This document shows, piece after piece, positions 14,929 through 24,463 of a DNA stretch of 25,210 bases. The notes beneath the pieces were generated by a model that saw only the letters and a program-made list of their open reading frames with translations, was not told the origin of the DNA and searched no databases. Every line of letters begins with the position of its first letter. Position 1 is the first letter of the stretch. Made by a program: the position numbers and the translations under genes. Source of the DNA: a virus. The DNA lies in the IMG/VR virus record IMGVR_UViG_3300017775_000008, positions 1-25,210 of that record; one strand, 5' to 3'.

Positions 14929-14936
14929 AATCTTTC

Positions 14937-15158
14937 TCAACCGTTGCAGGGTGGGTGTGACCAGTTGGCATATTGCCAGTCGCTGATCTCGCCGTCTTTG
15001 CACAGTGCGTCGGTCCAGTTGTTCCAGGCTTCGCAACGGGCTGGCCAGTCAGGTTGACCGTCCTGCTCATGCGCCTCTTGGATCATCGGAAGGATCTCGG
15101 TGGTGAAGGTTTCGCATGCTTGTGCGAAAAGGATAACGGTCGGAATGTTTGAAGCCAT
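14937..15158 (-). CDS. Small acidic Trp/Cys-rich hypothetical protein
   Basis: 73 aa, ATG 15158 with AAGGAG eight bases upstream. A hydrophobic N-terminal helix (IPTVILFAQACETFTTEILP) leads to a Trp-rich acidic half, WPARCEAWNNWTDALCKDG, and SDWQYANWSHPPC. Four Cys are present without zinc-finger spacing. I have the impression that small phage proteins with DALCKDGxIS...W exist as unnamed families. First gene of the P6 unit. Confidence 0.66.
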   Translation of the reverse strand: MASNIPTVILFAQACETFTTEILPMIQEAHEQDGQPDWPARCEAWNNWTDALCKDGEISDWQYANWSHPPCNG

Positions 15159-15176
15159 GTAGCTTTCTCCTTACTT

Positions 15177-15193
15177 GGTATAACCATTATACC
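15177..15193. promoter_or_regulatory. Operator-like dyad at P6
   Basis: GGTATAA-CCA-TTATACC, perfect 7-bp arms, spanning the whole -10. P5 has a related but shorter dyad (GGTATATACC). Confidence 0.45.
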
Positions 15194-15240
15194 AAAAAAA
15201 CGGGGGTAAGTCAACACCTAAGTTGTCAAGTGAATGTCAA
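15186..15240 (-). promoter_or_regulatory. Promoter P6 (three-box type)
   Basis: Box 1 TTGACA (15235-15240), box 2 TTGACA (15224-15229), -35 TTGACT (15209-15214), 17-nt spacer with CCCCC, TGG-TATAAT (-10 at 15186-15191). It shares 21 bases of the box 1-box 2 block exactly with P7 and P9. Confidence 0.82.
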
Positions 15241-15257
15241 GAGCTAATGACTTTCAT
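15237..15257 (-). pseudogene. Seven-codon relic of a KVGD-family gene
   Basis: ATG-AAA-GTC directly joined to ATT-AGC-TCT-TGA (M-K-V-I-S-S-stop). The first three codons equal a family start; the last four resemble the end of the 17730-17921 gene (G-T-T-A-G-C-T-C-T-T-G-A). It overlaps the preceding stop as ATGA and ends in box 1 of P6. It reads as the join left when a cassette body was lost. Confidence 0.45.
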
Positions 15258-15430
15258 GCTATCACTTCCAGGTGCGACGGACGGACACCGCATGTACGAT
15301 CTCCGCTACACAGATACATAATATCAACCCGTGGAGCGTTCCCACCTTTGCCGCCTCGATACAGGCGCATAACCACATGAAGGGCATTTTTGCGACCCGT
15401 CCTAAACCTTACCAGATCACCGACTTTCAT
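15254..15430 (-). CDS. KVGD-family SH3-like protein (array member)
   Basis: 58 aa. ATG 15430 lies behind GAGG inside the end of the previous gene. MKVGDLVRFRTGRKNALHVV, then a glycine-rich loop (YRGGKGGN), the strand RVDIMYLC and HLEVIA. It is the last real gene of the P7 unit. The tail stops at E-V-I-A without N-E-S-R, as expected when no intact family gene follows. Confidence 0.78.
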   Translation of the reverse strand: MKVGDLVRFRTGRKNALHVVMRLYRGGKGGNAPRVDIMYLCSGDRTCGVRPSHLEVIA

Positions 15431-15575
15431 TGATAACCTCAAACTCTGCTATGCGCTGCCAGGGGATTCGTCCCAACACTTTAAGCCAAACGCCGCGCCA
15501 CTCCGTTACAAGAAAGACCTTGTTAAAATCTCTGGTTGTGGGATGCTTTGGTGTTACCAAGTCACCGACTTTCAT
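15417..15575 (-). CDS. KVGD-family SH3-like protein (array member, short)
   Basis: 52 aa, ATG 15575, 14-nt overlaps at both ends. M-K-V-G-D-L-V-T-P-K-H-P, FLVTEWRG, VWLKVLGRIPW and EFEVINESR. The FLVTE and LKVLG strands make it close to 15562-15741, its upstream neighbour, so local duplication is likely. The linker between strands is among the shortest in the array. Confidence 0.75.
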   Translation of the reverse strand: MKVGDLVTPKHPTTRDFNKVFLVTEWRGVWLKVLGRIPWQRIAEFEVINESR

Positions 15576-15741
15576 TTATCACCTTCAAATGACTGCTTTT
15601 CTGCGTCAGTGCCACTTTCTCATGGGTCCACAAAACTTTAACGTCAGCGTTGCCCGTCCACGCACCGACTTCGGTGACAAGACCGACAAAGTTGCCGGTG
15701 ATCGCTGGAGAACTATAAGTGACCAGATCACCTACTTTCAT
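15562..15741 (-). CDS. KVGD-family SH3-like protein (array member)
   Basis: 59 aa, ATG 15741. A near-consensus member: MKVGDLVTYSS, NFVGLVTEVG, NADVKVLWTHEK, SSHLKVINESR. The start codon and the S-R tail both lie in 14-nt overlaps. VKVLW recurs in 7490-7705, and as VKVCW in 19409-19588, which helps define the third strand. Confidence 0.8.
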   Translation of the reverse strand: MKVGDLVTYSSPAITGNFVGLVTEVGAWTGNADVKVLWTHEKVALTQKSSHLKVINESR

Positions 15742-15883
15742 TTTTCAACCTCGCGCTTTGCTCCATCATTGGTGCAGTCTCATCGTGCCACATAACCATC
15801 ACATCGTATCCGACACCAAAGGTGCCAACATCAATGACAATACCCATTGAGCCACGAAAAGATACCAGATCGCCGACTTTCAT
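15728..15883 (-). CDS. KVGD-family SH3-like protein (array member, short)
   Basis: 51 aa, ATG 15883, ATGA overlap upstream and 14-nt overlap downstream. MKVGDLVSFRGSMGIVIDVG, YDVMVMWHDETAPMM and a tail R-L-K-N-E-S-R in which the usual V-I is missing. The downstream ribosome site is correspondingly weaker (GAGGTTGAAAA). Confidence 0.75.
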   Translation of the reverse strand: MKVGDLVSFRGSMGIVIDVGTFGVGYDVMVMWHDETAPMMEQSARLKNESR

Positions 15884-16047
15884 GCTGCGCTCATCACTTC
15901 ATAGTTGAGTGTACCGTGTGTGAGGTTCCATGTTACCCAATGGCTTGTGGCGGTCTTTAGATTTTGCAACAGTGCATCGTCACCGACAACACAGGTAACT
16001 AACCATATCGTTTCATGGTGCATACGCACCAGATCACCGACTTTCAT
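15880..16047 (-). CDS. KVGD-family SH3-like protein (array member, divergent)
   Basis: 55 aa, ATG 16047. MKVGDLVRMHHETIWLVTCV, VGDDALLQNL, HWVTWNL and a tail YEVMSAA. It lacks the central glycine strand and resembles 18657-18803 (VRMRWTGTLWLTL), so these two form a subfamily that also shares the A-A ending and 4-nt coupling. Confidence 0.72.
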   Translation of the reverse strand: MKVGDLVRMHHETIWLVTCVVGDDALLQNLKTATSHWVTWNLTHGTLNYEVMSAA

Positions 16048-16222
16048 TTATCACCTTCAAGTATTCTGCCGGTTCCCAGCATACATCATTACAATCCATC
16101 CACAGGATGCCCATTTTATTTCTTGTTCTCGCCCTCTGCTCCGCGTCGGGGTGCAGCTTTGCCACAATCAACCCAGGAACCCTGCTGTCACTTCTAAACA
16201 CTACCAGATCACCGACTTTCAC
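16034..16222 (-). CDS. KVGD-family SH3-like protein (WEP subgroup)
   Basis: 62 aa, GTG 16222 overlapping the previous stop as GTGA. MKVGDLVVFRSDSRVPGLIV, KMGILWMDCNDVC, WEPAEYLKVINESR. With 16897-17082 and 23497-23682 it forms a trio sharing V-G/G-L-I-V, M-G-h-x-W-x-D and W-E-P-V/A, members of three different operons. Confidence 0.8.
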   Translation of the reverse strand: MKVGDLVVFRSDSRVPGLIVAKLHPDAEQRARTRNKMGILWMDCNDVCWEPAEYLKVINESR

Positions 16223-16392
16223 AAGATTTTGCCCTTCTCATAGAAGTAACAGCCGACTGTATAAGCGGTCGATCCGATAAAGTACGATACACGATGATAC
16301 CACCGATAATCTGCATCATCATATGGCACATCAAACTGACGAAACCAGCGAAACGAAAACTCACAGAATCCATAGCCTAACCATCTAAACAT
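16219..16392 (-). CDS. Small aromatic-rich protein (57 aa)
   Basis: ATG 16392 in the duplicated leader, first gene of the P7 unit. MFRWLGYGFCEFSFRWFRQF then DVPYDDADYRWYHRVSYF and GSTAYTVGCYFYEKGKIL. Very rich in Phe/Tyr/Trp/Arg, with no clear transmembrane span. It couples to the first array gene through GTGA. No family recognised. Confidence 0.6.
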   Translation of the reverse strand: MFRWLGYGFCEFSFRWFRQFDVPYDDADYRWYHRVSYFIGSTAYTVGCYFYEKGKIL

Positions 16393-16426
16393 ATCTCTTT
16401 CTCCATCCTATGCATACATTATACCA
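16390..16426 (-). repeat. 37-bp leader/-10 repeat, copy 2
   Basis: Exact copy of 13691-13727. The identity ends at the ATG on one side and just upstream of the -10 on the other, so the shared unit is promoter plus leader without coding sequence. Confidence 0.85.
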
Positions 16427-16472
16427 CAAAGAACGGGGATGGTCAATACCAAAGTTGTCAAGTGAATGTCAA
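16418..16472 (-). promoter_or_regulatory. Promoter P7 (three-box type)
   Basis: Box 1 TTGACA (16467-16472), box 2 TTGACA (16456-16461), -35 TTGACC (16441-16446), 17-nt spacer with CCCC, TGG-TATAAT (-10 at 16418-16423). Drives seven genes down to 15254. The zinc-ribbon gene stops inside box 1. Confidence 0.82.
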
Positions 16473-16723
16473 CCCTTATCGGGTGCGGCTTGCCATGCTG
16501 ACGAGGACGCGATCCGTTCTTCCTCCGACTTATAAGAGACAATGGATAGCGTTGTTGCTTCCCCATCGTCGCCGGACGCGAAACCCAAATACTTTACAGC
16601 GGTTTCAGTCTCCAGTTCCTCAACGCATGACGGGCACTCATTAATCTTGCCTCCGACAAGCCTTTTAAAGTGACCATCTACATCGAATGTATCGTTACAA
16701 TGTTTACAGGTTTTCATGTTCAT
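16469..16723 (-). CDS. Zinc-ribbon protein (CxxC...CxxC), array passenger
   Basis: 84 aa, ATG 16723 with AGGAGG seven bases upstream, the strongest ribosome site nearby. CKHC (6, 9) and CPSC (30, 33) flank DTFDVDGHFKRLVGGKINE, a compact treble-clef-like ribbon. The second half is acidic with a beta hairpin (KYLGFASGDDGEATTLSIV). Last gene of the P8 unit; its TGA lies in P7 box 1. I have the impression that similar short ribbons occur in many environmental phages. Likely a nucleic-acid or protein-binding accessory. Confidence 0.75.
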   Translation of the reverse strand: MNMKTCKHCNDTFDVDGHFKRLVGGKINECPSCVEELETETAVKYLGFASGDDGEATTLSIVSYKSEEERIASSSAWQAAPDKG

Positions 16724-16910
16724 TTTTGTCCTCCTTGGACAAGTTTAACGTACCGTTCAGAACGGTCATTCCGCTCATGCGGTGTCGTTCTGGTCCCCAT
16801 GACCAGACGATTTCGGCAACCCTGCCGAATACTCTTGTGACCACGCCCACATCCGTTATATCGTCTGCGTCATAGTCAATCGTAAATGTTACCAAGTCAC
16901 CGGTTTTCAC
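16704..16910 (-). CDS. KVGD-family SH3-like protein (MKTGD variant)
   Basis: 68 aa, GTG 16910. MKTGDLVTFTIDYDADDITD, VGVVTRVFGRVAEIVWSWG and a tail NLSKEDKNEHENL that departs from V-I-N-E-S-R because the next gene is the zinc ribbon. The 20-nt overlap is instead used to encode the AGGAGG ribosome site. Confidence 0.75.
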   Translation of the reverse strand: MKTGDLVTFTIDYDADDITDVGVVTRVFGRVAEIVWSWGPERHRMSGMTVLNGTLNLSKEDKNEHENL

Positions 16911-17082
16911 TGATCACATCCATATATTCCACTGGTTCCCATTCGACTTGATCGTGATCACTCCACCACACTCCCATGCGGGGGCGCCGCAGATTTGCGG
17001 CGTCATCCTCACGTTCTGCTACAATCAAACCAGTCGTTCGATCCTCATCGCCTCTAAACACTACCAGATCACCGATTTGCAT
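16897..17082 (-). CDS. KVGD-family SH3-like protein (WEP subgroup, MQIGD)
   Basis: 61 aa, ATG 17082. MQIGDLVVFRGDEDRTTGLI, RMGVWWSDHDQV, WEPVEYMDVISENR. The tail S-E-N-R matches the downstream start GTG-AAA-ACC: each tail residue follows the next gene's start sequence. Confidence 0.8.
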   Translation of the reverse strand: MQIGDLVVFRGDEDRTTGLIVAEREDDAANLRRPRMGVWWSDHDQVEWEPVEYMDVISENR

Positions 17083-17284
17083 TTATAACCTCCATGCGAT
17101 CCAGGTTGTAAAACTCCGTATCGCCATCGGATCGCAGGACTTGGCGATAAATACCATGATTCATGCCAGCACCCACGATCAACCCAACAAAGTGAGCGTC
17201 AACATTTTGCACCCCATCGCGCCGAAACTTGTTCCGCGCCCGATGCGTGAAGTTGTATACTTTAATCAAGTCACCGACTTTCAT
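17069..17284 (-). CDS. KVGD-family SH3-like protein
   Basis: 71 aa from ATG 17284; an in-frame start at 17308 would lie inside the previous gene. MKVGDLIKVYNFTHRARNKF, VDAHFVGLIVGAGMN, GIYRQVL and RMEVINANR. The N-A-N-R tail matches the following ATG-CAA-ATC start. It has a longer first loop than most members and follows a non-family gene by only 4 nt. Confidence 0.78.
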   Translation of the reverse strand: MKVGDLIKVYNFTHRARNKFRRDGVQNVDAHFVGLIVGAGMNHGIYRQVLRSDGDTEFYNLDRMEVINANR

Positions 17285-17288
17285 TGTT

Positions 17289-17654
17289 TTACCAGTCCAC
17301 CGGATCATTCATAAACTCGTCAGAGCACGGGGTAGCGGTGCCTTCCATCATCCGGGCATTCCGTTCCTCGCGCCGGGTTGCGGCGCGGGATGTCTCTTTA
17401 ATCTGTTCGCGGGCGTCGATGCCTGCCTGGATAAAAGTGTCCTCCGCAGCGGCGGCGGTGGCGATGGCGGCATCCCAACCATCATGGCGACGATTAAATG
17501 CCTCGCGCAAATCCAGATCAAGGTCTGCGCCGGCTCCCTGACGGCGTAGCCATTCCTCGCCTTCGCATTCCTCGGGTAGCTCCATCCACGTGCCAAGCGC
17601 GTCGATCAAAGTCTCAATATCTTCTTCTGTAAGTTCGATGGTAACCGTACTCAT
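17289..17654 (-). CDS. Acidic helical hypothetical protein
   Basis: 121 aa, ATG 17654 with AGGAG upstream. MSTVTIELTEEDIETLIDAL opens with a short strand and helix; then an acidic segment (PEECEGEEW), the alanine-rich helix IATAAAAEDTF and a basic helix (SRAATRREERNARMMEG). It looks helical and partly disordered. First gene of the P8 unit and not related to the array family. Confidence 0.68.
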   Translation of the reverse strand: MSTVTIELTEEDIETLIDALGTWMELPEECEGEEWLRRQGAGADLDLDLREAFNRRHDGWDAAIATAAAAEDTFIQAGIDAREQIKETSRAATRREERNARMMEGTATPCSDEFMNDPVDW

Positions 17655-17678
17655 TTGTGTTCTCCTATTTACCCCTAT

Positions 17679-17733
17679 AATATACCATTTTTGAGGGGGT
17701 TTGTCAAGGTTAATCTTGTAAAGTAAATGTCAA
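17679..17733 (-). promoter_or_regulatory. Promoter P8 (three-box type)
   Basis: Box 1 TTGACA (17728-17733), box 2 TTTACA (17717-17722), -35 TTGACA (17702-17707), 17-nt spacer with CCCCC, TGG-TATATT (-10 at 17679-17684). Box 2 and flank match P12 exactly over 20 bases. The previous gene stops in box 1. Confidence 0.83.
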
Positions 17734-17921
17734 GAGCTAACGACTTCCGCTACTTCTTCAAGGTGTCCGACGCGGAACATGGTAGGGTTTTGGGTTCGCG
17801 GGAGTACCGCGCCATGCACCCAGATTGTAAACGCATCATCTATGTTTCTCCGCTCGACTTTCGCGATGATCGTACCAATAACGCCAGTCGCCTTAAACTG
17901 TATGACATTACCTACTTGCAT
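17730..17921 (-). CDS. KVGD-family SH3-like protein (MQVGN variant)
   Basis: 63 aa, ATG 17921. MQVGNVIQFKATGVIGTIIA, AFTIWVHGAVL and a tail AEVVSS with TGA inside P8 box 1. Asp of the G-D box is Asn. As last gene of its unit it lacks the N-E-S-R ending. Confidence 0.75.
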   Translation of the reverse strand: MQVGNVIQFKATGVIGTIIAKVERRNIDDAFTIWVHGAVLPRTQNPTMFRVGHLEEVAEVVSS

Positions 17922-18105
17922 TGATGATCACCAGACTCCAGGTTGAATGGTTTGAAGCATCGGTGAAGCCGGAAGTCCACTGGACTTCGACCTCATCTTT
18001 ATCTCCGATTTCTTCTGGATCAAAACAGGTAACGATGCCGATGCACCGGGGGCGTCCAAGTCTTTCCATTGATCCAGCGATTGTTACCAAGTCACCGACT
18101 TTCAT
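17908..18105 (-). CDS. KVGD-family SH3-like protein
   Basis: 65 aa from ATG 18105; the frame stays open further upstream but only across the previous gene. MKVGDLVTIAGSMERLGRPR, CIGIVTCFDPEEIG, DEVEVQWTSG and SLVIINASR. The I-N-A-S-R tail matches the next gene's ATG-CAA-GTC start. Confidence 0.78.
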   Translation of the reverse strand: MKVGDLVTIAGSMERLGRPRCIGIVTCFDPEEIGDKDEVEVQWTSGFTDASNHSTWSLVIINASR

Positions 18106-18319
18106 TGATGACCTCCAGATCGTGAGCAAGAAACGCCCGTATTCCTCCATCTCCGCAAAGTTTAACGCAGGGTCGCCCAGCGCGATGCATGCCACCGAGA
18201 TGATAGGCTGGCACCACGATCCCCACCGTACCAGCAGGCACAATAGCCTTATTTGACGGAGCATTTGCGATGCCGCGAATATCGTCGCCTTTCAGTCTTA
18301 CCAAGTCACCGACTTTCAT
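18092..18319 (-). CDS. KVGD-family SH3-like protein (KOW-like)
   Basis: 75 aa, ATG 18319, ATGA coupled to the gene before. MKVGDLVRLKGDDIRGIANA, PAGTVGIVVPAY, RPCVKLCGDG and HDLEVINESR. The pattern G-D-x-V-x-L-x-G ... G-x-V-G-I-V is the clearest KOW-motif resemblance in the array, hence my suggestion of an SH3/KOW barrel. Confidence 0.8.
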   Translation of the reverse strand: MKVGDLVRLKGDDIRGIANAPSNKAIVPAGTVGIVVPAYHLGGMHRAGRPCVKLCGDGGIRAFLAHDLEVINESR

Positions 18320-18660
18320 GCCGCGATCACCGTTCGATTAATCTCAATATCATAGTCATAACTCTCCCAGGTGTATTCAGCCCAGGAACCAAAGACATTG
18401 GCCAAATCCTCGCTGCTCATTCCTTTCAGGATCTCAAAGTCCCACTCATGTGGTGGCAGGTCATCGGTGGATTCACGTTCATTATGTTGACCCGTGGTGA
18501 GTGACCGTGCGTTTACAACCTCGGTCGCCGTTTCCTGGTCCTCCACACCCAAAAACTCCAATACATCGTTAATCGCAGTCAAATATGCGCCTTTTTGTGT
18601 CAGGTGTGTGCTTGCACTCATTTCCCCATCATAGCGAAAAATCACTACCCATACGTTCAT
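18316..18660 (-). CDS. Hypothetical acidic protein, array passenger
   Basis: 114 aa, ATG 18660, ATGA overlaps on both sides. MNVWVVIFRYDGEMSASTHL starts with a strand; then a helix (KGAYLTAINDVLEFLGV) and acidic WDFEILKGMSSEDL plus YTWESYDYDIEI. It lacks a G-D-L-V box. It probably occurs as a small conserved unknown in other phages. Inserted between two family members. Confidence 0.68.
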   Translation of the reverse strand: MNVWVVIFRYDGEMSASTHLTQKGAYLTAINDVLEFLGVEDQETATEVVNARSLTTGQHNERESTDDLPPHEWDFEILKGMSSEDLANVFGSWAEYTWESYDYDIEINRTVIAA

Positions 18661-18803
18661 GCCGCCACCTCAAAAGCTGTTTTCATCATCCATTCTTTCG
18701 CGTTGGTCTTGACGTTGCACACCAGCACTGTATCTGCAATAATATCCAGGGTGAGCCACAGTGTACCCGTCCAACGCATGCGAACCAGATCACCTACTTG
18801 CAT
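18657..18803 (-). CDS. KVGD-family SH3-like protein (shortest member)
   Basis: 48 aa, ATG 18803. MQVGDLVRMRWTGTLWLTLD, DTVLVCNVKTNAKEWM and FEVAA. Shares the short layout of 15880-16047. It may be near the minimum for a folded barrel. ATGA coupling to the passenger gene explains the A-A end. Confidence 0.72.
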   Translation of the reverse strand: MQVGDLVRMRWTGTLWLTLDIIADTVLVCNVKTNAKEWMMKTAFEVAA

Positions 18804-19153
18804 GCTGCCGCCTTCTTTGCGCGAGCATTCTTACTTTCAGCCAACAGGGTGTTGACCCACTCTCCGTCAAACTCGGCTGCATACTTGTCACGAAGAACAA
18901 GCAACTTCTCACCATCTTTAACTTCATTCCGCAGCTTATAGCCGGGGATCAGGAACTCGGTGCCAACGGGGGCGCCCGCGAATACTTGACACACCGCGTA
19001 GGGTACGGACTTCCAGCCGGTTTTATCGTTACCAGTCTTGCGGTCTTTCCACGTGCGCCGAAAGCGCCGAAAGCGCATATCCACGACGCGAGCCTGCAAG
19101 GTCATGCCTCCGTTCCGAATGATTACAAGATCGTCTTTTGTCAAATATGCCAT
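18794..19153 (-). CDS. KVGD-like protein with large insertion (119 aa)
   Basis: ATG 19153 lies behind AAGGAG; earlier in-frame codons fall in the promoter leader. M-A-Y-L-T-K-D-D-L-V-I-I-R-N-G-G-M, LQARVVDMRFRRFRRTWKDR, then VCQVFAGAPVGTEFLIPGYK, KLLVLRDKYAAEF and a basic Ala/Lys tail. D-D-L-V-I-I replaces G-D-L-V. First gene of the P9 unit and the longest array member. The basic loop suggests nucleic-acid contact, as inference. Confidence 0.65.
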   Translation of the reverse strand: MAYLTKDDLVIIRNGGMTLQARVVDMRFRRFRRTWKDRKTGNDKTGWKSVPYAVCQVFAGAPVGTEFLIPGYKLRNEVKDGEKLLVLRDKYAAEFDGEWVNTLLAESKNARAKKAAACK

Positions 19154-19179
19154 GTAATGTTCTCCTTGATTACCCCTAT

Positions 19180-19234
19180 AATATACCATTTTTTGGGGGG
19201 TTTGTCAATAGTTAAGTTGTCAAGTGAATGTCAA
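19180..19234 (-). promoter_or_regulatory. Promoter P9 (three-box type)
   Basis: Box 1 TTGACA (19229-19234), box 2 TTGACA (19218-19223), -35 TTGACA (19203-19208), 17-nt spacer CCCCCC then A-tract, TGG-TATATT (-10 at 19180-19185). The most canonical of the set; its -10 region is nearly identical to that of P8. Confidence 0.87.
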
Positions 19235-19425
19235 GTAAATAGTTTTAGCGTCCTGATTGCGTGCTGCACCGGCGTAGCTTCGCCATGCCACAGCACCCAC
19301 ACGTTCGACCATGCCCGCATCCAGTCAGGATCAACACGCACGACAACACCGACGCGCCGAAGATCATGATCATCTTCATGCGTCACCAGATCACCAGCCT
19401 TCACCTTGTCAATCTCGGGGGACAT
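19231..19425 (-). CDS. KVGD-family SH3-like protein (VKAGD variant)
   Basis: 64 aa, ATG 19425 behind GGAGAG. Six residues precede the box (MSPEIDKVKAGDLVTHEDDH); then RRVGVVVRVDPDW, VWVLWHGEATP and RTLKLFT. Last gene of the P10 unit, so it ends in K-L-F-T with TGA in P9 box 1. The overlap with the gene before is 17 nt, not 14. Confidence 0.77.
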   Translation of the reverse strand: MSPEIDKVKAGDLVTHEDDHDLRRVGVVVRVDPDWMRAWSNVWVLWHGEATPVQHAIRTLKLFT

Positions 19426-19588
19426 TCAGTCTCTCCAAATCCCTAATCTTTTCCATGCATGGCCCGTGGTCGGGCCAACAAACTTTAACGTATGCCACCG
19501 GCTGAATCGGTGTCACTTCCATAACTCTAAGGACGATCCCCGGCTGGCTATAACCCAGGCGAGTTTTAACAAGATCACCTACTTTCAT
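19409..19588 (-). CDS. KVGD-family SH3-like protein
   Basis: 59 aa, ATG 19588. MKVGDLVKTRLGYSQPGIVL, RVMEVTPIQP, AYVKVCWPDHG and DLERLNVPRD. The tail is reshaped to encode GGAGAG and the next start, which has an extended N-terminus; a natural example of the tail following the neighbour. Confidence 0.76.
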   Translation of the reverse strand: MKVGDLVKTRLGYSQPGIVLRVMEVTPIQPVAYVKVCWPDHGPCMEKIRDLERLNVPRD

Positions 19589-19775
19589 TTAGAATCTCCA
19601 GTTGATCGAGCGGAGTCGAACAGATTTCGCCCTCCCACAACACAAATGCGCGGGTGATAATAGTCCACCCATCCTTGTCCATTCCGGTCGAATAAGTATC
19701 ATCGCGAATAAAAATACCAGTAATGGGTTTTTCATTCGGACCAAAACTTACTTTTACCAAATCACCGGTTTTCAT
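19575..19775 (-). CDS. KVGD-family SH3-like protein (STPxxQ subgroup)
   Basis: 66 aa, ATG 19775. MKTGDLVKVSFGPNEKPITG, IFIRDDTYS, AFVLWEGEICSTPLDQLE and ILNESR. W-E-G-E-I-C-S-T-P-x-x-Q is matched by 24233-24463 (WDGEIYSIPTQQI) and 22484-22711 (DGDDLPIPTTQI), a subgroup spread over three units. Confidence 0.79.
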   Translation of the reverse strand: MKTGDLVKVSFGPNEKPITGIFIRDDTYSTGMDKDGWTIITRAFVLWEGEICSTPLDQLEILNESR

Positions 19776-19962
19776 TGATTTTCTCCAAATAGTCTGCGCG
19801 GAATGACCGAATGTTATCCCGCGTTAATACATCATACCAAGCATCCTGCCACGATGCTGTCTCAAACGACCTTTTAACAATCACACCGACTTGACCCACA
19901 AATGGACTCTTTAGCCTGTCATTTTCTGACTGCACAATCTTTACCAAGTCACCGCCTTTCAT
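19762..19962 (-). CDS. KVGD-family SH3-like protein (MKGGD variant)
   Basis: 66 aa, ATG 19962. MKGGDLVKIVQSENDRLKSP, FVGQVGVIVKRSFE, WYDVLTRDNIRSF and LEKINENR. F-V-G-Q-V-G-V-I-V resembles 23669-23866 (LVGQVGFIM). The N-E-N-R tail matches the next ATG-AAA-ACC. Confidence 0.78.
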   Translation of the reverse strand: MKGGDLVKIVQSENDRLKSPFVGQVGVIVKRSFETASWQDAWYDVLTRDNIRSFRADYLEKINENR

Positions 19963-20251
19963 TGATCAACTCCGTTCGCCACTCGCTAAACTTCTGGGTG
20001 CTCATGCCGCCAACAACATTTTCAAGTTGTTCGTCGGAAAGCGCAGGGCTAACAATCTCTAAACTTGCTTCATCTTCTCGGACATCGACGACTTGCCCGG
20101 TGTTGTCCAATACTTGAAACACGATACACTTGTCATCCCAAGTGGTGTTTGCGTATACTCGGGATCCGACAATAACGCCGGTAAAGTGCGTCTGCGTCCA
20201 ATCCGTGTGAAGGTGCCAGTACCATTTAACCAAATCACCGACTTTAAGCAT
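19949..20251 (-). CDS. KVGD-family SH3-like protein with helical C-terminal extension
   Basis: 100 aa, ATG 20251, 8-nt overlap with the gene before. MLKVGDLVKWYWHLHTDWTQ, HFTGVIVGSRVY, CIVFQVLDNTGQVVDV form the barrel. About 35 extra residues follow (SPALSDEQLENVVGGMSTQK) before a modified tail TELINERR. The extension may be a second functional module. Three-residue shift at the start: M-L-K-V instead of M-K-V. Confidence 0.77.
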   Translation of the reverse strand: MLKVGDLVKWYWHLHTDWTQTHFTGVIVGSRVYANTTWDDKCIVFQVLDNTGQVVDVREDEASLEIVSPALSDEQLENVVGGMSTQKFSEWRTELINERR

Positions 20252-20468
20252 TAATCACTTCCCATTCATCTGCGTATACCACTGTCTCGCCCAGGTGCGG
20301 GAATACCGCGATCACGTAGTCGGGGCACGTTCGGGGCTCACCGATTTCTGTGACAAGCCCTGGTTTCCCTCGATGCCCAGGTGGATCTGCTCCAACAACG
20401 CTAATCAGATCGCCCACCCTAACTTCCAGGTCACGGGGGTTGCGGTTCTCTCTCTTAACTCTAATCAT
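20244..20468 (-). CDS. KVGD-family SH3-like protein, possibly leaderless
   Basis: 74 aa from ATG 20468. MIRVKRENRNPRDLEVRVGD places the box unusually late; then GLVTEIG, YVIAVFPHLGETVVY and EWEVINA. The P10 -10 ends six bases before this ATG with no ribosome site between, so the transcript would begin at or next to the start codon. A later GTG (V-G-D-L) behind GGAAG is the alternative start. Confidence 0.68.
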   Translation of the reverse strand: MIRVKRENRNPRDLEVRVGDLISVVGADPPGHRGKPGLVTEIGEPRTCPDYVIAVFPHLGETVVYADEWEVINA

Positions 20469-20474
20469 ATGTAC

Positions 20475-20529
20475 ATTATAGCATGCATACAGCACATGGT
20501 CAAGGGAAAGGTTGTAAAGAGATTGTCAT
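20475..20529 (-). promoter_or_regulatory. Promoter P10 (three-box type)
   Basis: Box 1 ATGACA (20524-20529), box 2 TTTACA (20513-20518), -35 TTGACC (20498-20503), 17-nt spacer, TATAAT (-10 at 20475-20480) preceded by TGC. It lacks the C-tract and the GG before the -10, and its leader is missing, so it is a divergent member. Confidence 0.78.
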
Positions 20530-20692
20530 GCCCACGGGGGTCGCCGTCCTCACCGCGTCACCCACTCGCCAGCCTAACGTCAACTCCCTGGCGGGGCTTT
20601 CATATGATGCATAATGCCTCATATTTGGAGATTCGTGTTAGACATTGAATCTCCGGTTACTTACTATAACCGTAGGCATGACAATCTGTTAG
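20530..20692. other. Gene-free segment with strong hairpins
   Basis: Three inverted repeats in about 105 bases: CGCCAG/CTGGCG (20567-20593), GGAGATTC/GAATCTCC (20627-20654) and GGTTA/TAACC (20655-20671), the last two back to back. No T-run follows, so a simple intrinsic terminator is not supported. It lies between the stop at 20693 and P10. A structured leader, attenuator or small RNA is possible. No tRNA T-loop is present. Confidence 0.45.
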
Positions 20693-21088
20693 TTAATACT
20701 GCATTTCTCTCACGATTCCGATGGAGTCACACATTCCCCATCCACGGGTTTCGTTATCGTCCATATCTTCGCCTGTTCTCAAAAATCTAAAGTGTTCATC
20801 GGCTGCAATCGTGACTTCCTCGCCGTCAGAGTTTTTACTTGGAAGATGCTCATTTTCGCACCAGTCCATAAAATCCTCGATAGCATGGATTTCTTCATAC
20901 GTATTGTACCACTTAATATGATCCCAACTAAAGAGCATCGAGCCCTTTTCACCACAATAATCTTTAACCCTGTCGGTGTGTTCATCAAAACACATCGCAC
21001 GTGCGGCTTGACACTTGGCCATTGTGACCATAAACTGTGGCATGACTTCTGCCCCCACAAACAATACTACTCCTGATCTATATCCCAT
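20693..21088 (-). CDS. Conserved-type hypothetical protein (MGYRSG)
   Basis: 131 aa from ATG 21088 with GGAGG six bases upstream; it starts one base after the preceding stop. MGYRSGVVLFVGAEVMPQFM, an aromatic middle (LFSWDHIKWYNTYEEIHAIE), acidic WCENEHLP, then HFRFLRTGEDMDD and SIGIVREMQY. Phage proteins beginning M-G-Y-R-S with an I-K-W-Y segment are, as I recall, a widespread unnamed group. Second gene of the P11 unit. Confidence 0.7.
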   Translation of the reverse strand: MGYRSGVVLFVGAEVMPQFMVTMAKCQAARAMCFDEHTDRVKDYCGEKGSMLFSWDHIKWYNTYEEIHAIEDFMDWCENEHLPSKNSDGEEVTIAADEHFRFLRTGEDMDDNETRGWGMCDSIGIVREMQY

Positions 21089-21089
21089 T

Positions 21090-21275
21090 TTATGCCTCCG
21101 CTGGATGCAGAAAAACCGCACCCACGATAGTTAGTGTTTCGCGTATCACTGGCGCCGATTCTTTTCGGATCTGTCCGACCAGCATCAGCATCGTAATCAT
21201 AGCTTCAAGATTTTCTTGATTTTGTTCCATTGGCGTCCTGTTGGGGCGCATGTTAATCAGTGGATATTCTTGCAT
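21090..21275 (-). CDS. Small hydrophobic-helix hypothetical protein
   Basis: 61 aa from ATG 21275. MQEYPLINMRPNRTPMEQNQ then a helix LEAMITMLMLVGQIRKESAP and ETLTIVGAVFLHPAEA. An internal ATG at 21230 has AGGA five bases upstream and may be the true start (46 aa). First gene of the P11 unit. No family recognised. Confidence 0.5.
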   Translation of the reverse strand: MQEYPLINMRPNRTPMEQNQENLEAMITMLMLVGQIRKESAPVIRETLTIVGAVFLHPAEA

Positions 21276-21295
21276 GATTCTTTACTTACTCCTAT

Positions 21296-21349
21296 AATAT
21301 ACCACACGGGGGGGTCTGTGTCAAGCGTTGAATGTAAACTAAGTGTCAA
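21296..21349 (-). promoter_or_regulatory. Promoter P11 (three-box type)
   Basis: Box 1 TTGACA (21344-21349), box 2 TTTACA (21333-21338), -35 TTGACA (21319-21324), 17-nt spacer with a seven-C run, TGG-TATATT (-10 at 21296-21301). Box 2 to -35 is one base shorter than in most, as in P1. The preceding gene stops in box 1. Confidence 0.83.
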
Positions 21350-21540
21350 GGGTGTCTGCGTGGGATCCAGGGATCCATTTCCTGCCGCGAAAACCATTTG
21401 TTTGCAAACTCGTCGCCTGCCAGCCTATACATGATCCTTAATCGGAGTCCTGCGCCGGATGGTATGATCTCGTCTCGCGTTTCCACGATTAGCTTTCGCT
21501 CGTTCGAGCTTAGAAGTTTAACTATATCACCTGTTCTCAT
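21346..21540 (-). CDS. KVGD-family SH3-like protein (MRTGDI variant)
   Basis: 64 aa, ATG 21540. MRTGDIVKLLSSNERKLIVE, GLRLRIMYRLAGDEF, WFSRQEMDPWIPRRHP. The final strand is replaced by a Pro/Arg/His tail whose stop is in P11 box 1. Last gene of the P12 unit. Confidence 0.75.
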   Translation of the reverse strand: MRTGDIVKLLSSNERKLIVETRDEIIPSGAGLRLRIMYRLAGDEFANKWFSRQEMDPWIPRRHP

Positions 21541-21730
21541 TAATCACCTCAATCTCGCCTTCGAAAACTCCATAGGCTTTCGGTCTTTCTGGAAAACTCC
21601 AAAACACGCGCCAGATGGTCCCGGTCGTAGCGGCTGCACCTTCACCAATAATGATGCCTAAAACATATTCGGCTGGCTCGTCACCGAGGCTCTGCCGGGT
21701 ACAGTATCTAACCAAGTCACCGACTTGCAC
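21527..21730 (-). CDS. KVGD-family SH3-like protein
   Basis: 67 aa, GTG 21730. MQVGDLVRYCTRQSLGDEPA, EYVLGIIIGEG, IWRVFWSFPERP, FEGEIEVINENR. The N-E-N-R tail pairs with the next start ATG-AGA-ACA. The preceding tail uses S-A-S-R, which fits the GTG-CAA-GTC start. Confidence 0.78.
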   Translation of the reverse strand: MQVGDLVRYCTRQSLGDEPAEYVLGIIIGEGAAATTGTIWRVFWSFPERPKAYGVFEGEIEVINENR

Positions 21731-21884
21731 TTACCAACTCCATAAAATCACCATTCTCGATAATGGGCTTGTGTCTGTTGCTCCACAGCACCCACACATC
21801 AGCGGGTTTAGCCCATCGCTTTATGCAGGGCGCAGTAACAATGCCGAGTGTGCCTCGGAGTCTTACCAAATCACCGACTTTCAT
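21717..21884 (-). CDS. KVGD-family SH3-like protein
   Basis: 55 aa from ATG 21884; a longer in-frame start at 21938 would run through the previous gene. MKVGDLVRLRGTLGIVTAPC, ADVWVLWSNRHKP and DFMELVSASR. V-W-V-L-W is shared with 19231-19425. Compact loops. Confidence 0.78.
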   Translation of the reverse strand: MKVGDLVRLRGTLGIVTAPCIKRWAKPADVWVLWSNRHKPIIENGDFMELVSASR

Positions 21885-22033
21885 TTTACCACCTGCATGC
21901 GGCTGCGATGACACCACGAAAGTCTGCCATCCATCCACCTAACCACGGGCTTGAGGAATCGGTCAAAGCTGACGACGATGCCAAGCATACCAGATTCAGA
22001 ACTAAGGTTTTTCACCAAATCACCGACTTTCAT
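21881..22033 (-). CDS. KVGD-family SH3-like protein (short)
   Basis: 50 aa, ATG 22033, ATGA overlaps on both sides. MKVGDLVKNLSSESGMLGIV, FLKPVVRWMDGRLSW and RMQVVK. The 4-nt joins give a V-V-K end instead of N-E-S-R, showing the alternative junction class. Confidence 0.76.
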   Translation of the reverse strand: MKVGDLVKNLSSESGMLGIVVSFDRFLKPVVRWMDGRLSWCHRSRMQVVK

Positions 22034-22326
22034 TTTACACCTTCAATGTGGCGGCATTTGCGCCGCCATCCGAAACCAGCACACGTGCAAGTATACTGAT
22101 CATTAAACAGTCTCACCTTGTAAACATTTCCCTTGCTACCCTCGACCTTCCACGTTTTTTCTACGGGGTTAGGCGTGACTGGGGAAGGTTTAACGACCAT
22201 GTATTTCGGTAGGTCGTCACGGGTTGTGTCGTCGGGTACTTCTATCCACACGCTACCGCACACGGCATAACGGATGCCGGTGTGTGCTGTAAACAGAACA
22301 GGGTTCCACGGTACTTCAATAGGCAT
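22030..22326 (-). CDS. SWIM-type zinc-finger protein, array passenger
   Basis: 98 aa from ATG 22326 (GAGG five bases upstream), preferred over GTG 22332. The C-terminus has YKVRLFNDQYTCTCAGFGWR then R-K-C-R-H, a CxC-x8-CxH SWIM signature that binds zinc and usually contacts DNA or protein. WKVEGSKGNVYKV precedes it. The N-terminal half (TAHTGIRYAVCGSVWIEVPD) is beta-rich and unrecognised. Single SWIM proteins of this form are, as I recall, common in phages. Confidence 0.8.
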   Translation of the reverse strand: MPIEVPWNPVLFTAHTGIRYAVCGSVWIEVPDDTTRDDLPKYMVVKPSPVTPNPVEKTWKVEGSKGNVYKVRLFNDQYTCTCAGFGWRRKCRHIEGVK

Positions 22327-22333
22327 ATTCACC

Positions 22334-22438
22334 TCACGCCATCGGGCAGGTAAAAAAGTGAATAGCGAAAACGATCAGCGCACCCCAGCAGATTGCATCT
22401 ACTGTAACGACTGCGCCCATAAGTGTTTTTGAGTCCAT
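22334..22438 (-). CDS. Membrane peptide (34 aa)
   Basis: GGGAG lies directly before ATG 22438. M-D-S-K-T-L-M-G-A-V-V-T-V-D-A-I-C-W-G-A continues L-I-V-F-A-I-H-F-F-T and ends C-P-M-A: one membrane span. First gene of the P12 unit. Its end provides the ribosome site of the SWIM gene. Confidence 0.58.
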   Translation of the reverse strand: MDSKTLMGAVVTVDAICWGALIVFAIHFFTCPMA

Positions 22439-22458
22439 AACTCCCTCTCTATATACAT

Positions 22459-22513
22459 AATATACCATACTGCGTACCATATGTCAACTGTTTCCTTGTA
22501 AAGTAAATGTCAA
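22459..22513 (-). promoter_or_regulatory. Promoter P12 (three-box type)
   Basis: Box 1 TTGACA (22508-22513), box 2 TTTACA (22497-22502), -35 TTGACA (22482-22487), 17-nt spacer without C-tract, TGG-TATATT (-10 at 22459-22464). All three boxes are also coding for the end of 22484-22711, whose stop is in the -35. Confidence 0.8.
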
Positions 22514-22711
22514 GTCTGCTGCTCGGACCAGTGTAATCTGGGTAGTGGGAATCGGTAGATCATCACCATCCACAAACACCCATGCACGTGACGCCCAATG
22601 TCCGTTGTGGGGTCCGTAATACCGCATGAAGATACCCACAGACTTTCCCCCATAGCCATAATCGACTTCGACCAGATCACCACGGTGGAAATATTGTTTA
22701 ACGGCGTCCAT
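22484..22711 (-). CDS. KVGD-family SH3-like protein (HRGDLV variant)
   Basis: 75 aa, ATG 22711. MDAVKQYFHRGDLVEVDYGY, KSVGIFMRYYG, AWVFVDGDDLPIPTTQI, TLVRAADLTFTLQGNS. A seven-residue leader precedes the box. The last ten codons are promoter P12 read as protein (D-L-T-F-T-L-Q-G-N-S). It follows the previous stop by 4 nt. Confidence 0.75.
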   Translation of the reverse strand: MDAVKQYFHRGDLVEVDYGYGGKSVGIFMRYYGPHNGHWASRAWVFVDGDDLPIPTTQITLVRAADLTFTLQGNS

Positions 22712-22715
22712 TGTT

Positions 22716-22961
22716 TTATACCTTGCTCACGATATGAACCCACGTACCGATATTGTGCTTGTTCGGCATGACGATAGGTTGACTATGACCATTATAGACG
22801 ATCACAGGGTAGGGACAACATTTTGGATCCCAATCTCTATCCCACGGTTGCGTGCGGATCTCTGCTACAATCCCGATGCGCCACCCATTGTCATCATGGG
22901 CAAGCCCATAGCGTGCGCGGTCGTAATCAAAAAACTTAACAATATCACCTACTTGAAGCAC
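22716..22961 (-). CDS. KVGD-family SH3-like protein (long loops)
   Basis: 81 aa, GTG 22961. MLQVGDIVKFFDYDRARYGL, WRIGIVAEIRTQPWDRDW, YPVIVYNGHSQPIVMP and WVHIVSKV. Two extended loops make it larger than most. Overlap with the gene before is 17 nt because the start is M-L-Q-V rather than M-K-V. Confidence 0.76.
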   Translation of the reverse strand: MLQVGDIVKFFDYDRARYGLAHDDNGWRIGIVAEIRTQPWDRDWDPKCCPYPVIVYNGHSQPIVMPNKHNIGTWVHIVSKV

Positions 22962-23118
22962 TGACTACCTCCCACATGCGCGGGTCACACATTTCGGGTG
23001 TAGTCGAACCAATAACCAACACTTTGATACGATTGAATGACGGGGCTCCGACGATACACACCACCAGTGCGTGCACGGCTGGGGACCGTTTCGGCTTGAT
23101 CAAATCACCGACTTTCAC
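22945..23118 (-). CDS. KVGD-family SH3-like protein
   Basis: 57 aa, GTG 23118. MKVGDLIKPKRSPAVHALVV, CIVGAPSFN, RIKVLVIGSTTPE, MWEVVSASSR. The tail A-S-S-R matches the shifted GTG-CTT-CAA start that follows. Confidence 0.75.
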   Translation of the reverse strand: MKVGDLIKPKRSPAVHALVVCIVGAPSFNRIKVLVIGSTTPEMCDPRMWEVVSASSR

Positions 23119-23296
23119 TGATCACCTCAAGATTCTTATTCATAGCATAGCCATCCGAAGATTGCATAGGTGGCAAGCCGTCAAGATATTTAATCCAACA
23201 ACCGTTGCGCTCCCACGTTTCGGTTCGCACGACAATAGCCATGCGTCCCTTATTCTTACAGTGCTCCGCGATCTTTACCAAGTCACCGACTTTCAC
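23105..23296 (-). CDS. KVGD-family SH3-like protein
   Basis: 63 aa, GTG 23296. MKVGDLVKIAEHCKNKGRMA, IVVRTETWERN, CWIKYLDGLPPMQS, KNLEVISESR. The tail uses Ser before E-S-R because the next start is GTG (A-GTG) rather than ATG (A-ATG). Confidence 0.79.
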   Translation of the reverse strand: MKVGDLVKIAEHCKNKGRMAIVVRTETWERNGCWIKYLDGLPPMQSSDGYAMNKNLEVISESR

Positions 23297-23510
23297 TTAG
23301 CACCTCCGCGTCACCGCGTACAAAATCATACTTATCAAGTCGCCATTCGCCGCAGTCAAACATTACCACCCAACTATTCATTGGTGCGGGTGCCGTGATC
23401 AAACCAATACGATTAGAATTTCCGCTACAGAAAAAACATTCGCATTCAAAATCCAGGTTAGTCTTCTTTACGAGACAATCTTTAACTTTTACTAGATCAC
23501 CGATTTTCAC
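23283..23510 (-). CDS. KVGD-family protein with CxC/CxxC cysteine cluster
   Basis: 75 aa, GTG 23510. MKIGDLVKVKDCLVKKTNLD precedes ECECFFCSGNSNR (Cys-x-Cys-x-x-Cys), then IGLITAPAPMN, WVVMFDCGEW and AEVLSESR. The clustered Cys in the first loop could bind a metal, which no other member seems able to do. Confidence 0.77.
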   Translation of the reverse strand: MKIGDLVKVKDCLVKKTNLDFECECFFCSGNSNRIGLITAPAPMNSWVVMFDCGEWRLDKYDFVRGDAEVLSESR

Positions 23511-23682
23511 TGATAACCTCCAACCACACGACGGGTTCCCAATCTACACGACCATCACCGTCCATCCAATAGATGCCGACACGCTGTTGCGACTGTGACG
23601 GCGCAGGTAGCTTTGCTACCACTCCCACAGGGGGCGGGGCTTCCCCGCCACGCGGCATAGTAACAAGATCACCGACTTTCAT
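23497..23682 (-). CDS. KVGD-family SH3-like protein (WEP subgroup)
   Basis: 61 aa, ATG 23682. MKVGDLVTMPRGGEAPPPVG, VVAKLPAPSQ, RVGIYWMDGDGRVD, WEPVVWLEVISENR. Closest to 16034-16222 and 16897-17082, about 7 kb away in other units. The Pro-rich first loop is specific to this copy. Confidence 0.8.
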   Translation of the reverse strand: MKVGDLVTMPRGGEAPPPVGVVAKLPAPSQSQQRVGIYWMDGDGRVDWEPVVWLEVISENR

Positions 23683-23866
23683 TGATAACCTCTATGTTCG
23701 CTCGATGCATGACCTGTCTCCTGTTTTCCACAAAAACATTAATATAATGTTCCCAAGTCTCGGGAAAAGTAGGTGTTGGCATAATAAATCCAACCTGACC
23801 AACTAGTGAATCCAAGTTGTGCCCTCGCGGAACATCAATAATCCTTACCAAGTCACCGACTTGCAT
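23669..23866 (-). CDS. KVGD-family SH3-like protein
   Basis: 65 aa from ATG 23866; the in-frame start at 23878 lies outside the junction pattern. MQVGDLVRIIDVPRGHNLDS, LVGQVGFIMPTP, HYINVFVENRRQV, ANIEVINESR. Sits in two 14-nt overlaps. Confidence 0.79.
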   Translation of the reverse strand: MQVGDLVRIIDVPRGHNLDSLVGQVGFIMPTPTFPETWEHYINVFVENRRQVMHRANIEVINESR

Positions 23867-24038
23867 TGACCACCTCAATCACTTCAATTCGCTCCCAAAA
23901 TGTTCCCTGCTCGCCCCAGCAAATCTTTACCATGTCCCGGCCGGGGAGTGCGGTGTCACCAAAAGCAACCACGATACCGTGCATGCCAAAGTGCCACGCA
24001 TCTTCGTTAAAACTTCTTACCAAGTCACCAACATTCAT
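23853..24038 (-). CDS. KVGD-family SH3-like protein (MNVGD variant)
   Basis: 61 aa, ATG 24038. MNVGDLVRSFNEDAWHFGMH, GIVVAFGDTALPG, DMVKICWGEQGTFW and IEVIEVVNASR. ATGA coupling upstream. The tail N-A-S-R matches the next ATG-CAA-GTC. Confidence 0.79.
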   Translation of the reverse strand: MNVGDLVRSFNEDAWHFGMHGIVVAFGDTALPGRDMVKICWGEQGTFWERIEVIEVVNASR

Positions 24039-24232
24039 GATACAACTACCAAATCCTCGTCTAGAAAACGCCTCTTGAGGATACGACTGTTGAGCAATTG
24101 CACCTCATAAATAAAATATGGCTCTTGCTCCCAACGATGCGACTCATACCGCTTCAAAACGAGCCCCATTGTGCCGCTTGGCACTCCAATGCATGCCCGT
24201 TTAATTTTCACTAGTCTTCCAATATGGTTCAT
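24035..24232 (-). CDS. KVGD-family SH3-like protein (IGRLV variant)
   Basis: 65 aa, ATG 24232, abutting the preceding stop with no gap. MNHIGRLVKIKRACIGVPSG, TMGLVLKRYESH, YEVQLLNSRILKR and EDLVVVS. The Asp of the box is Arg. P-S-G-T-M-G-L-V is KOW-like. Confidence 0.74.
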   Translation of the reverse strand: MNHIGRLVKIKRACIGVPSGTMGLVLKRYESHRWEQEPYFIYEVQLLNSRILKRRFLDEDLVVVS

Positions 24233-24463
24233 TTATGATGCCCTGCTAATTCTTGTGATCTGCTGGGTCGGAATCGAATAAATCTCCCCATCCCAAAAAA
24301 TCATGGAGCGGAGGCGGTTGACGCTATCAAACTCCATGAAAATACCCACTTCCTCATCAAATCCTGGACCGAAATAAATAGATACCAAATCGCCAGCAGC
24401 AACTCGATACTCGCCTTGCAGAATGCCTTGGGTCGCTTTGTCCACGCATATTAGACGTAGCAC
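24233..24463 (-). CDS. KVGD-family SH3-like protein, first gene of the last unit
   Basis: 76 aa from GTG 24463. MLRLICVDKATQGILQGEYR leads to VAAGDLVSIYFGPGFDEEVG, IFMEFDS, MIFWDGEIYSIPTQQ and ITRISRAS. About 20 residues precede the box, like the first gene of the P10 unit, and again no ribosome site is visible. The start is uncertain. STPxxQ subgroup with 19575-19775. Confidence 0.68.
   Translation of the reverse strand: MLRLICVDKATQGILQGEYRVAAGDLVSIYFGPGFDEEVGIFMEFDSVNRLRSMIFWDGEIYSIPTQQITRISRAS

Follow-up and report, generated by a model that had tools for sequence, protein, structure and literature searches.

The junction between units

The window analysed here, a linear fragment of 25,210 bases that makes up the complete IMG/VR virus record IMGVR_UViG_3300017775_000008, carries on its minus strand (15254-24463) an array of 33 small genes of one family, interspersed with unrelated genes and arranged in about seven operons, as delineated by a profile hidden Markov model (HMM) of family members from outside the window, an overlap census and the positions of promoters. 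We propose that this array probably consists of exchangeable gene cassettes strung together by an adapter with a role in translation as well as in recombination. At the characteristic junction, the 3′ end of each unit (..EVINESR and the stop codon) encodes the Shine-Dalgarno sequence and the start of the next unit, and the two genes overlap by exactly 14 nucleotides. On the minus strand the junction reads ..GGAGGTnATnA ATG AAA GTC GGT GAT CTG GT.. (in short form, GGAGGTnATnA-ATGAAAGTCGGTGATYTGGT), and the E-V-I-N-E-S-R tail and stop are specified by the same bases as GAG GTn ATn AAT GAA AGT CGG TGA, in a frame other than that of the next M-K-V-G-D. At the example junction at 15556-15586 (minus strand), the Shine-Dalgarno sequence (GAAGGTGATAA) is combined with ATGAAAGTCGGTGACTTGGT, and the stop codon of the upstream unit is the TGA inside GGTGAC.

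The exact 14-nucleotide overlap links 17 consecutive pairs in the window, as counted on the list produced by the first profile. In a comparison set of 1,512 members, gathered over some 200 viral loci and comprising 1,175 distinct units in 544 families (nearly all from metagenome assemblies; individual loci are labelled L below), 621 of the 1,303 consecutive member pairs show the same overlap, 566 lie far apart and 62 overlap by 4 nucleotides. The logo of 468 junctions, TTGGAGGTnATCA followed by gTGAAAGTCGGTGATTTgGTaAAA, comprises about 30 conserved bases, synonymous positions included: the Val3 codon is GTC in 78% of junctions versus 21% in gene bodies, and the Gly4 codon is GGT in 100% versus 30%. 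Furthermore, GGT is still used in 84% of the units without a family member directly upstream, so that each unit begins with a ready-made stop codon for a neighbour that may be absent.

The N/S-E-S-R tail is found in 86% of the units that precede a 14-nucleotide overlap, in a single one of 167 without overlap and in none of 263 with a 4-nucleotide overlap, and among ortholog pairs (at least 70% identity) whose members differ in context, it is present only in the overlapped copy in 48 of 57 cases. The tail therefore tracks the overlap rather than the protein, and the end motif is mainly a by-product of the DNA junction. The original prediction had seen the units as sharing a G-D-L-V-type sequence, which is indeed present, although the MKVGDL start and the INESR end are to a large extent DNA-level features of the junction. 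For annotators, this is a warning against treating the shared ends (MKVGDL.., ..NESR), which are in part a DNA device, as protein motifs.

The adapter is also carried by genes that are unrelated to the family. Many of the 119 non-family frames found upstream of junctions are open frames that end by chance at the junction TGA, and evidence was drawn solely from frames that match Pfam or have a clear homologue. A GIY-YIG nuclease gene (L196; Pfam E 1e-16) starts with VKVGDWW.. and ends with ..EIINESR, and thus has the adapter at both ends, as does a gene for a DUF2061 membrane protein (L052); SWIM zinc-finger, ClpP, thioredoxin-like and DUF3310 genes end in the adapter, and a gp32-like gene starts in it. 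Two of the unrelated genes interspersed in the window array, all on the minus strand, have homologues of this kind: that at 16219-16392 is fused to the junction at its start in L105 (MKVGDLTDWLG..; MKVGDLTDWLGFVFCE..) and at its end in L086 (..EEVIDESR), and homologues of the SWIM zinc-finger gene at 22030-22332 end in the junction (..RRKCRHIEETRNESR). The others lie at 16469-16723 (with CxxC motifs, overlapping unit 27), 17289-17654 and 18794-19153 (both at operon heads), 18316-18660 and 20693-21088. Duplication within a single protein family would not easily produce such cargo on its own, and its presence agrees with recombination at a shared repeat.

The operons are bounded by six sigma-70-like promoters inside the array, which lie on the coding strand, agree with the consensus at 11 of 12 positions, and have a 17-nucleotide spacer and the TG extension of the -10 element (TTGACA-N17-TATATT at 22459-22487, and the same type at 21296-21324, 20475-20503, 19180-19208, 17679-17707 and 16418-16446). 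Each stands after one operon and before the next, which then usually consists of one unrelated gene and several units. Two further promoters of the same kind lie beyond the array, one directly after it and of the same module (15186-15214), the other at 14677. Across the loci, all 128 occurrences of the strict promoter motif are in sense orientation, none being antisense. Terminator-like sites in the scanned region show no excess (13 versus 18.4 expected by chance). Most of the array promoters (modules within 14649-22487, minus strand) also have a common upstream stretch, CTTGACATTyACTTkACAAC, in which a -35-like hexamer is repeated twice upstream of the real -35, and which may be a regulator site or an UP element. 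The constant overlap, the promoter-bounded operons and the interspersed unrelated genes all go beyond what had been predicted for this array.

Exchange of units between phages

In the mechanism that we propose, the adapter (about 20-30 bp) would have two roles. In the mRNA, the closing codons and stop of one gene would double as the ribosome-binding site and start of the gene that follows, a layout that would let translation pass down the operon by translational coupling. In the DNA, it would act as a short direct repeat at both ends of a cassette, so that homologous recombination at the repeats could delete, insert or swap single cassettes with their frames intact. A RecA/UvsX-type protein, encoded by all 11 large relatives tested, is the candidate recombinase; phage recombinases such as lambda Red are known to act on diverged DNA and may create mosaics (PMC2327257).

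Natural events of the expected form are found among the loci. L134 and L181, from different metagenomes, are 99.8% identical over 17.4 kb and differ by one unit of 176 bp, which sits exactly between two copies of ATGAAAGTCGGTGATTTGGT, repeats of about 20 bp; the frames are intact, the upstream unit still ending in VINESR and the downstream unit still beginning with MKVGDLVTLS. L137 and L167, which are about 94% identical, differ by 670 bp with both ends at junctions. When runs of contiguous units are compared between loci, 134 of 155 interior homology ends fall at a junction in both genomes, a location that accounts for 23% of positions by expectation, and the next unit beyond the homology end is unrelated in 155 of 156 cases. 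The break points of this mosaic thus coincide with a short conserved border sequence, both in these counts and in the exact one-unit difference. Consistent with such turnover, the nearest relatives of the window units are dispersed over many different contigs, and phages whose MoxR-type ATPase, encoded next to the array region, is 80-85% identical have 13% of their units in common, rising to 34% at 90-95% identity.

A competing explanation, which we consider unlikely, is that the junction is conserved for translation only, as an optimal arrangement of Shine-Dalgarno sequence, start and stop left by ancient tandem duplication, and that turnover reflects illegitimate recombination filtered by selection at gene borders, with the repeat itself uninvolved. 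The logo does contain a strong Shine-Dalgarno sequence (GGAGGT) at the right spacing, break points at gene borders are expected under selection, and much of the start sequence is kept by units in non-overlapped positions. Translation, however, does not need the synonymous GTC and GGT positions, which are highly constant and largely so even without upstream family overlap. Nor does it readily account for a one-unit difference placed exactly between two 20-bp repeats, for the junctions at one or both ends of unrelated genes, or for the greater loss of neighbours over the 14-nucleotide junction than over other borders, where ortholog pairs retain their neighbour in 10% of cases over 14-nucleotide junctions, 22% over 4-nucleotide overlaps and 36% over other borders.

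Several points nevertheless weigh against exchange driven by the adapter. Gene borders are natural break points under selection, and part of the junction enrichment is expected without any repeat-driven recombination; translation alone can also explain junction conservation. The difference in neighbour retention between 14-nucleotide and 4-nucleotide borders is modest (p=0.03), and the downstream regions that enter the comparison are heterogeneous in length and nature. An assembly error at a 20-bp repeat might, in principle, account for the one-unit difference, and identical duplicates of recent origin may have been merged in the assemblies. Finally, the phage collection searched holds no close relative, its MoxR proteins being at most about 30% identical. 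The junction enrichment alone is therefore not proof of repeat-driven exchange, and it is the synonymous conservation, the one-unit difference and the unrelated cargo that carry the argument.

Site-specific recombination at the junction, of an integron-like or invertase-like kind, would likewise produce exact break points at a constant sequence and attach unrelated cargo. We regard it as very unlikely in place of general homologous recombination, since the junction is plain start-region sequence whose logo displays no inverted-repeat core, and no array-linked recombinase was found, although the linked genes were not systematically screened.

The units are functional proteins on which purifying selection acts. 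Once the overlapping ends are excluded, ortholog pairs give a median ratio of nonsynonymous to synonymous substitution rates (dN/dS) of 0.24 over 94 families, none of which exceeds 1. The protein-level constraint whose absence (dN/dS near 1) would have spoken against the original prediction is therefore present, while the strong diversifying selection that it postulated is not borne out at the ortholog level. We accordingly reject point-by-point diversifying selection among orthologs, and attribute the diversity to the shuffling of an old and huge pool. Recent tandem duplication can be rejected as the source of the copies as well, as just 4 of 1,175 units have a match of at least 70% identity within their own genome, versus 320 with such a match in another locus. 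A neutral or selfish expansion of functionless short genes, multiplying by slippage between repeats, might be suggested by the tandem layout with direct repeats and by a repertoire that climbs without plateau (542 families in 193 loci), but the purifying selection largely refutes it and the near absence of recent within-genome duplicates leaves it scarcely credible.

Taking these observations together, we lean, with modest confidence, towards the broader view that this phage group evolved modular gene exchange without a dedicated recombinase: a single adapter serving as stop, ribosome site, start and recombination repeat would allow an open-ended pool of single-domain SH3 barrels, and occasionally unrelated genes, to be passed between phages singly and with intact frames.

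Membership, fold and possible function of the units

That the array represents one family in many copies was confirmed with the HMM from which window sequences had been excluded, which recovers 33 frames at E<0.05, 29 of them at E<1e-5, although the outside units behind it had themselves been collected with a profile started from the window. The same HMM yields a single match at E<=0.03 in 20 dinucleotide-shuffled windows pooled. Together with a reading of all frames, this sets the count at 33, all on the minus strand, rather than the 34 tandem paralogous mini-genes initially counted over the same interval; the candidate thirty-fourth frame (20500-20622) matches the profile weakly (hhalign probability 31%, 10 columns).

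Along the coding strand, and called by overlap census and HMM unless other evidence is given, the array begins with unit 1 (24233-24463; HMM E 5e-5) and unit 2 (MNHIGRLVKIK.., 24035-24232; HMM E 7e-6, hhalign 98%). Units 3 (23853-24038), 4 (23669-23866), 5 (23497-23682, with 33 relatives elsewhere), 6 (23283-23510) and 7 (23105-23296) are each followed by a 14-nucleotide junction; unit 8 (22945-23118) overlaps the next by 17 nucleotides, and unit 9 (22716-22961) is succeeded by unit 10 (22484-22711; HMM, hhalign 97%) at the operon end. Unit 11 (21881-22033) has a 4-nucleotide ATGA overlap with the next, units 12 (21717-21884) and 13 (21527-21730) lead into 14-nucleotide junctions, and the operon closes with unit 14 (21346-21540), the most divergent of all (HMM E 0.03, hhalign 94%). 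There follow unit 15 (20244-20468), with an 8-nucleotide overlap, units 16 (19949-20251, with a C-terminal extension), 17 (19762-19962) and 18 (19575-19775), each with a 14-nucleotide junction behind it, unit 19 (19409-19588) and, at another operon end, unit 20 (19231-19404).

Unit 21 (MQVGDLVRMRW.., 18657-18803; strand reading and HMM) overlaps a non-family gene by 4 nucleotides. Unit 22 (18092-18319) precedes a 14-nucleotide junction, and unit 23 (17908-18105; strand reading and HMM) is joined in the same way to unit 24 (MQVGNVIQFK.., 17730-17921; HMM E 6e-4, hhalign 97%), again an operon end. Units 25 (17069-17284) and 26 (16897-17082) are followed by 14-nucleotide junctions and then by unit 27 (16704-16910). 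Unit 28 (16034-16222) ends in a 14-nucleotide junction, unit 29 (15880-16047) in a 4-nucleotide ATGA overlap, and units 30 (15728-15883), 31 (15562-15741) and 32 (15417-15575) again in 14-nucleotide junctions, before the array terminates with unit 33 (15254-15430). Unit 16 has in common with a non-family gene (L086:3159) the C-terminal stretch L-E-x-V-V-G-G-x-x-T-x-x-F-S-x-W-R, a separate small motif added onto different proteins.

The eight divergent copies or domains that had been proposed elsewhere in the window fared unevenly in profile-profile comparison. Clear members (hhalign 96-97%) lie on the minus strand at 5584-5826 (E 1e-7, hhalign 97%), 7490-7726 (E 1e-9, hhalign 97.5%) and 7689-8030 (hhalign 96%), the last as a domain behind an N-terminal extension. 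A C-terminal barrel domain is plausible in the larger minus-strand protein at 9431-10246 (hhalign 89.5%, 52 columns), as is membership of 12137-12358 (hhalign 89%, N-terminal half only), whereas 6244-6537 and 6540-6818 are weak matches (hhalign 70-76%). The minus-strand protein at 14689-14910 aligns to the family over its first 13 residues only and belongs to a sequence family of its own (MQVGSLYRF), members of which begin in the junction in other loci (L126, L134, L179).

Curated resources and phage collections returned little. Megablast of the array against phage records found no match, tblastn of a synthetic barrel consensus against phage records gave nothing even at E 10, and Pfam and PHROG scans of the units produced sub-threshold scatter without a curated family that covers them; one unit scores 14.9 bits against DUF7464, whose cut-off is 27, and the match to phrog_5533 (E 0.018) does not exceed the family cut-off.

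To describe the fold, an AlphaFold2 model of unit 31 was calculated from an alignment of 81 diverse units. With a mean predicted local distance difference test (pLDDT) score of 90.7, the model has strands at residues 6-9, 20-25, 33-38, 45-48 and 52-56 and a short helix at about 49-51, before the last strand. In VIA the first neighbour is the Spt5 KOW domain (Z 8.7, root-mean-square deviation 2.0 over 56 residues), and eL14, PsaE, NdhS and the MutS2 SH3 domain follow in Foldseek and VIA. The Foldseek E-values are weak (best 0.009), which is usual for a fold this small and common, and, independently of structure, the sequence profile reaches the KOW domains of uL24 and NusG at E 0.001-0.02. The SH3/KOW barrel anticipated from the strand pattern is therefore supported, the prediction of a five-stranded barrel of this type being a confident one. 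The KOW family proper (PF00467) is matched at E<0.01 by just one of 81 members (E 0.0031). Compared with the known KOW/SH3-like small barrels (Spt5, NusG, uL24; DUF2158, DUF7464), the predicted fold is alike, but the profile similarity is weak and the matches of the array units fall far below the curated cut-offs. For the protein at 14689-14910 the model is again a small barrel of five strands (pLDDT 90.3), and its fold matches, to chromo-barrel, PWWP, Spt5 and CarD-type domains, are weaker. In BFVD, roughly one third of the top viral matches by structure have closely numbered accessions (A0A516L/M..), perhaps from another phage or phages with many barrel paralogues.

The product of each cassette would thus be a single small barrel of the SH3/KOW type, which most likely is made early and binds a component of the host. 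Whether the barrels are early effectors of host takeover or counter-defence is, taken as a step on its own, an evenly balanced proposition, which we favour because of the strong host-type promoters, the small size of the genes and a repertoire turnover much faster than that of the adjoining MoxR gene; among the hallmarks of a host-takeover module, promoter strength and gene size are the ones that agree. The main rival on function, for which we see perhaps a modest chance, is that the barrels are KOW-like binders of RNA, ribosome or RNA polymerase that tune the phage's own transcription or translation, with many versions for many transcripts. The best fold and sequence neighbours, the KOW domains of Spt5, NusG, uL24 and eL14, do act on polymerase or ribosome. 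The fold is, however, common to many unrelated functions and the Foldseek matches to it are weak, and a repertoire of which closely related phages have few units in common is ill-suited to regulating conserved genes of their own. The array also brings to light a large unannotated pool (544 families, without a plateau) of barrels 50-80 residues long in uncultivated phages, which amounts to a natural library built on a single scaffold with hundreds of different surfaces and is likely to include host-binding proteins.

Phage group and known systems

The arrays that were looked for in related phages were found in the viral loci of the comparison set, and over the 12 records that were searched the units cluster in a single region. 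Large relatives mostly measure 185-205 kb, with one of 293 kb. A Gp23-type capsid protein (PF07068) is encoded by 7 of 7 large relatives (E down to 4e-62) and by 8 of 12 records of a second set; the window itself is a 25-kb fragment without a Gp23 capsid gene, and its T4-type assignment rests on these large relatives. The nearest deposited major capsid proteins, among them those of RM378, Flavobacterium phage immuto and Microcystis phage Mel-JY01, are just 34-45% identical, which places the group among uncultivated phages of the far-T4 kind described previously (PMC4360716). In the window, the MoxR-type AAA ATPase gene adjoins that of a DUF2201 metallopeptidase/VWA-like protein (12355-13437 and 10774-12060, minus strand), and since a MoxR gene, 39-73% identical, is present in 11 of 12 further array-bearing records tested, it makes a good marker for this phage group.

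When bacterial genomes were scanned for the junction, most matches were isolated and at chance level, and no host emerged. Contigs of a few metagenome-assembled genomes (L213/L226, L221-L223, L232, L233) contain true family members and are probably binned phage DNA. One of them, the chromosome of a candidate division WOR-3 assembly (L233, CP070664.1), has three array units with the junction, spaced 170-200 bp apart, which may be phage DNA assembled into that genome or a hint at a host. Among further features, several large relatives (L205, L209 and L210) have five tRNA genes (Arg, Met, Asn/Ile, Lys, Leu) clustered near the array. In the window, the minus-strand gene at 4642-5388 encodes a trypsin-like serine protease (Pfam E 2e-8) and that at 24514-25176, near the opposite end, a protein whose C-terminal part is a PDZ domain (E 1e-5); the two are possibly halves of an HtrA-like system. 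The product of 4175-4645 (minus strand) is of Nudix type, as judged from its motif GGHIDEEDNSIEAGAARELKEETGL.

How mosaic phage genomes arise while their gene borders stay functional is a long-standing question, to which this array contributes a linker at most of its borders together with precise natural events. In the boundary-sequence or linker hypothesis (Susskind and Botstein; Clark et al.), short conserved intergenic sequences allow modules to be swapped; such linkers, suggested decades ago, are not identifiable at most borders (PMC3029335). The array agrees with that hypothesis in its short conserved border sequences, homologous recombination and intact frames, and differs in that it has the linker at most borders, where it coincides with the break points. 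The promoter early stem-loop (PeSL) cassettes of T4-type phages (Arbiol 2010, Comeau 2014) similarly connect a repeated regulatory sequence with gene shuffling, which this repeat with its early promoter is thought to drive (PMC4503421). Their borders consist of a promoter and terminator stem-loop, unlike the coding overlap with Shine-Dalgarno sequence and start found here, where promoters stand at operon heads only and terminators are not in excess.

The start-associated sequences (SAS) of cluster K mycobacteriophages, 13-bp repeats with a Shine-Dalgarno core at the starts of assorted genes, are conserved beyond what ribosome pairing alone explains (PMC3203893). They resemble the adapter as a short conserved repeat at the start sites of a gene subset in one phage group; the array repeat, in contrast, doubles as coding sequence for the end of the gene before it, links dozens of genes of one fold and marks mosaic break points. 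In the host-takeover module of Bacillus phage SPO1, small early genes that have strong promoters and ribosome sites are clustered (PMC6873191), and the array is alike in these respects; the SPO1 module has not been described as sharing a single fold and an adapter, and a comparable function of the array is our proposal.

Integrons, finally, carry arrays of exchangeable small gene cassettes behind promoters, with attC sites on which the integron integrase acts. The array resembles them in this overall layout, but no attC-like structure is seen in its junction logo, no recombinase gene was found linked to it, although integrase genes were not searched for genome-wide, and its break points lie in a coding repeat.

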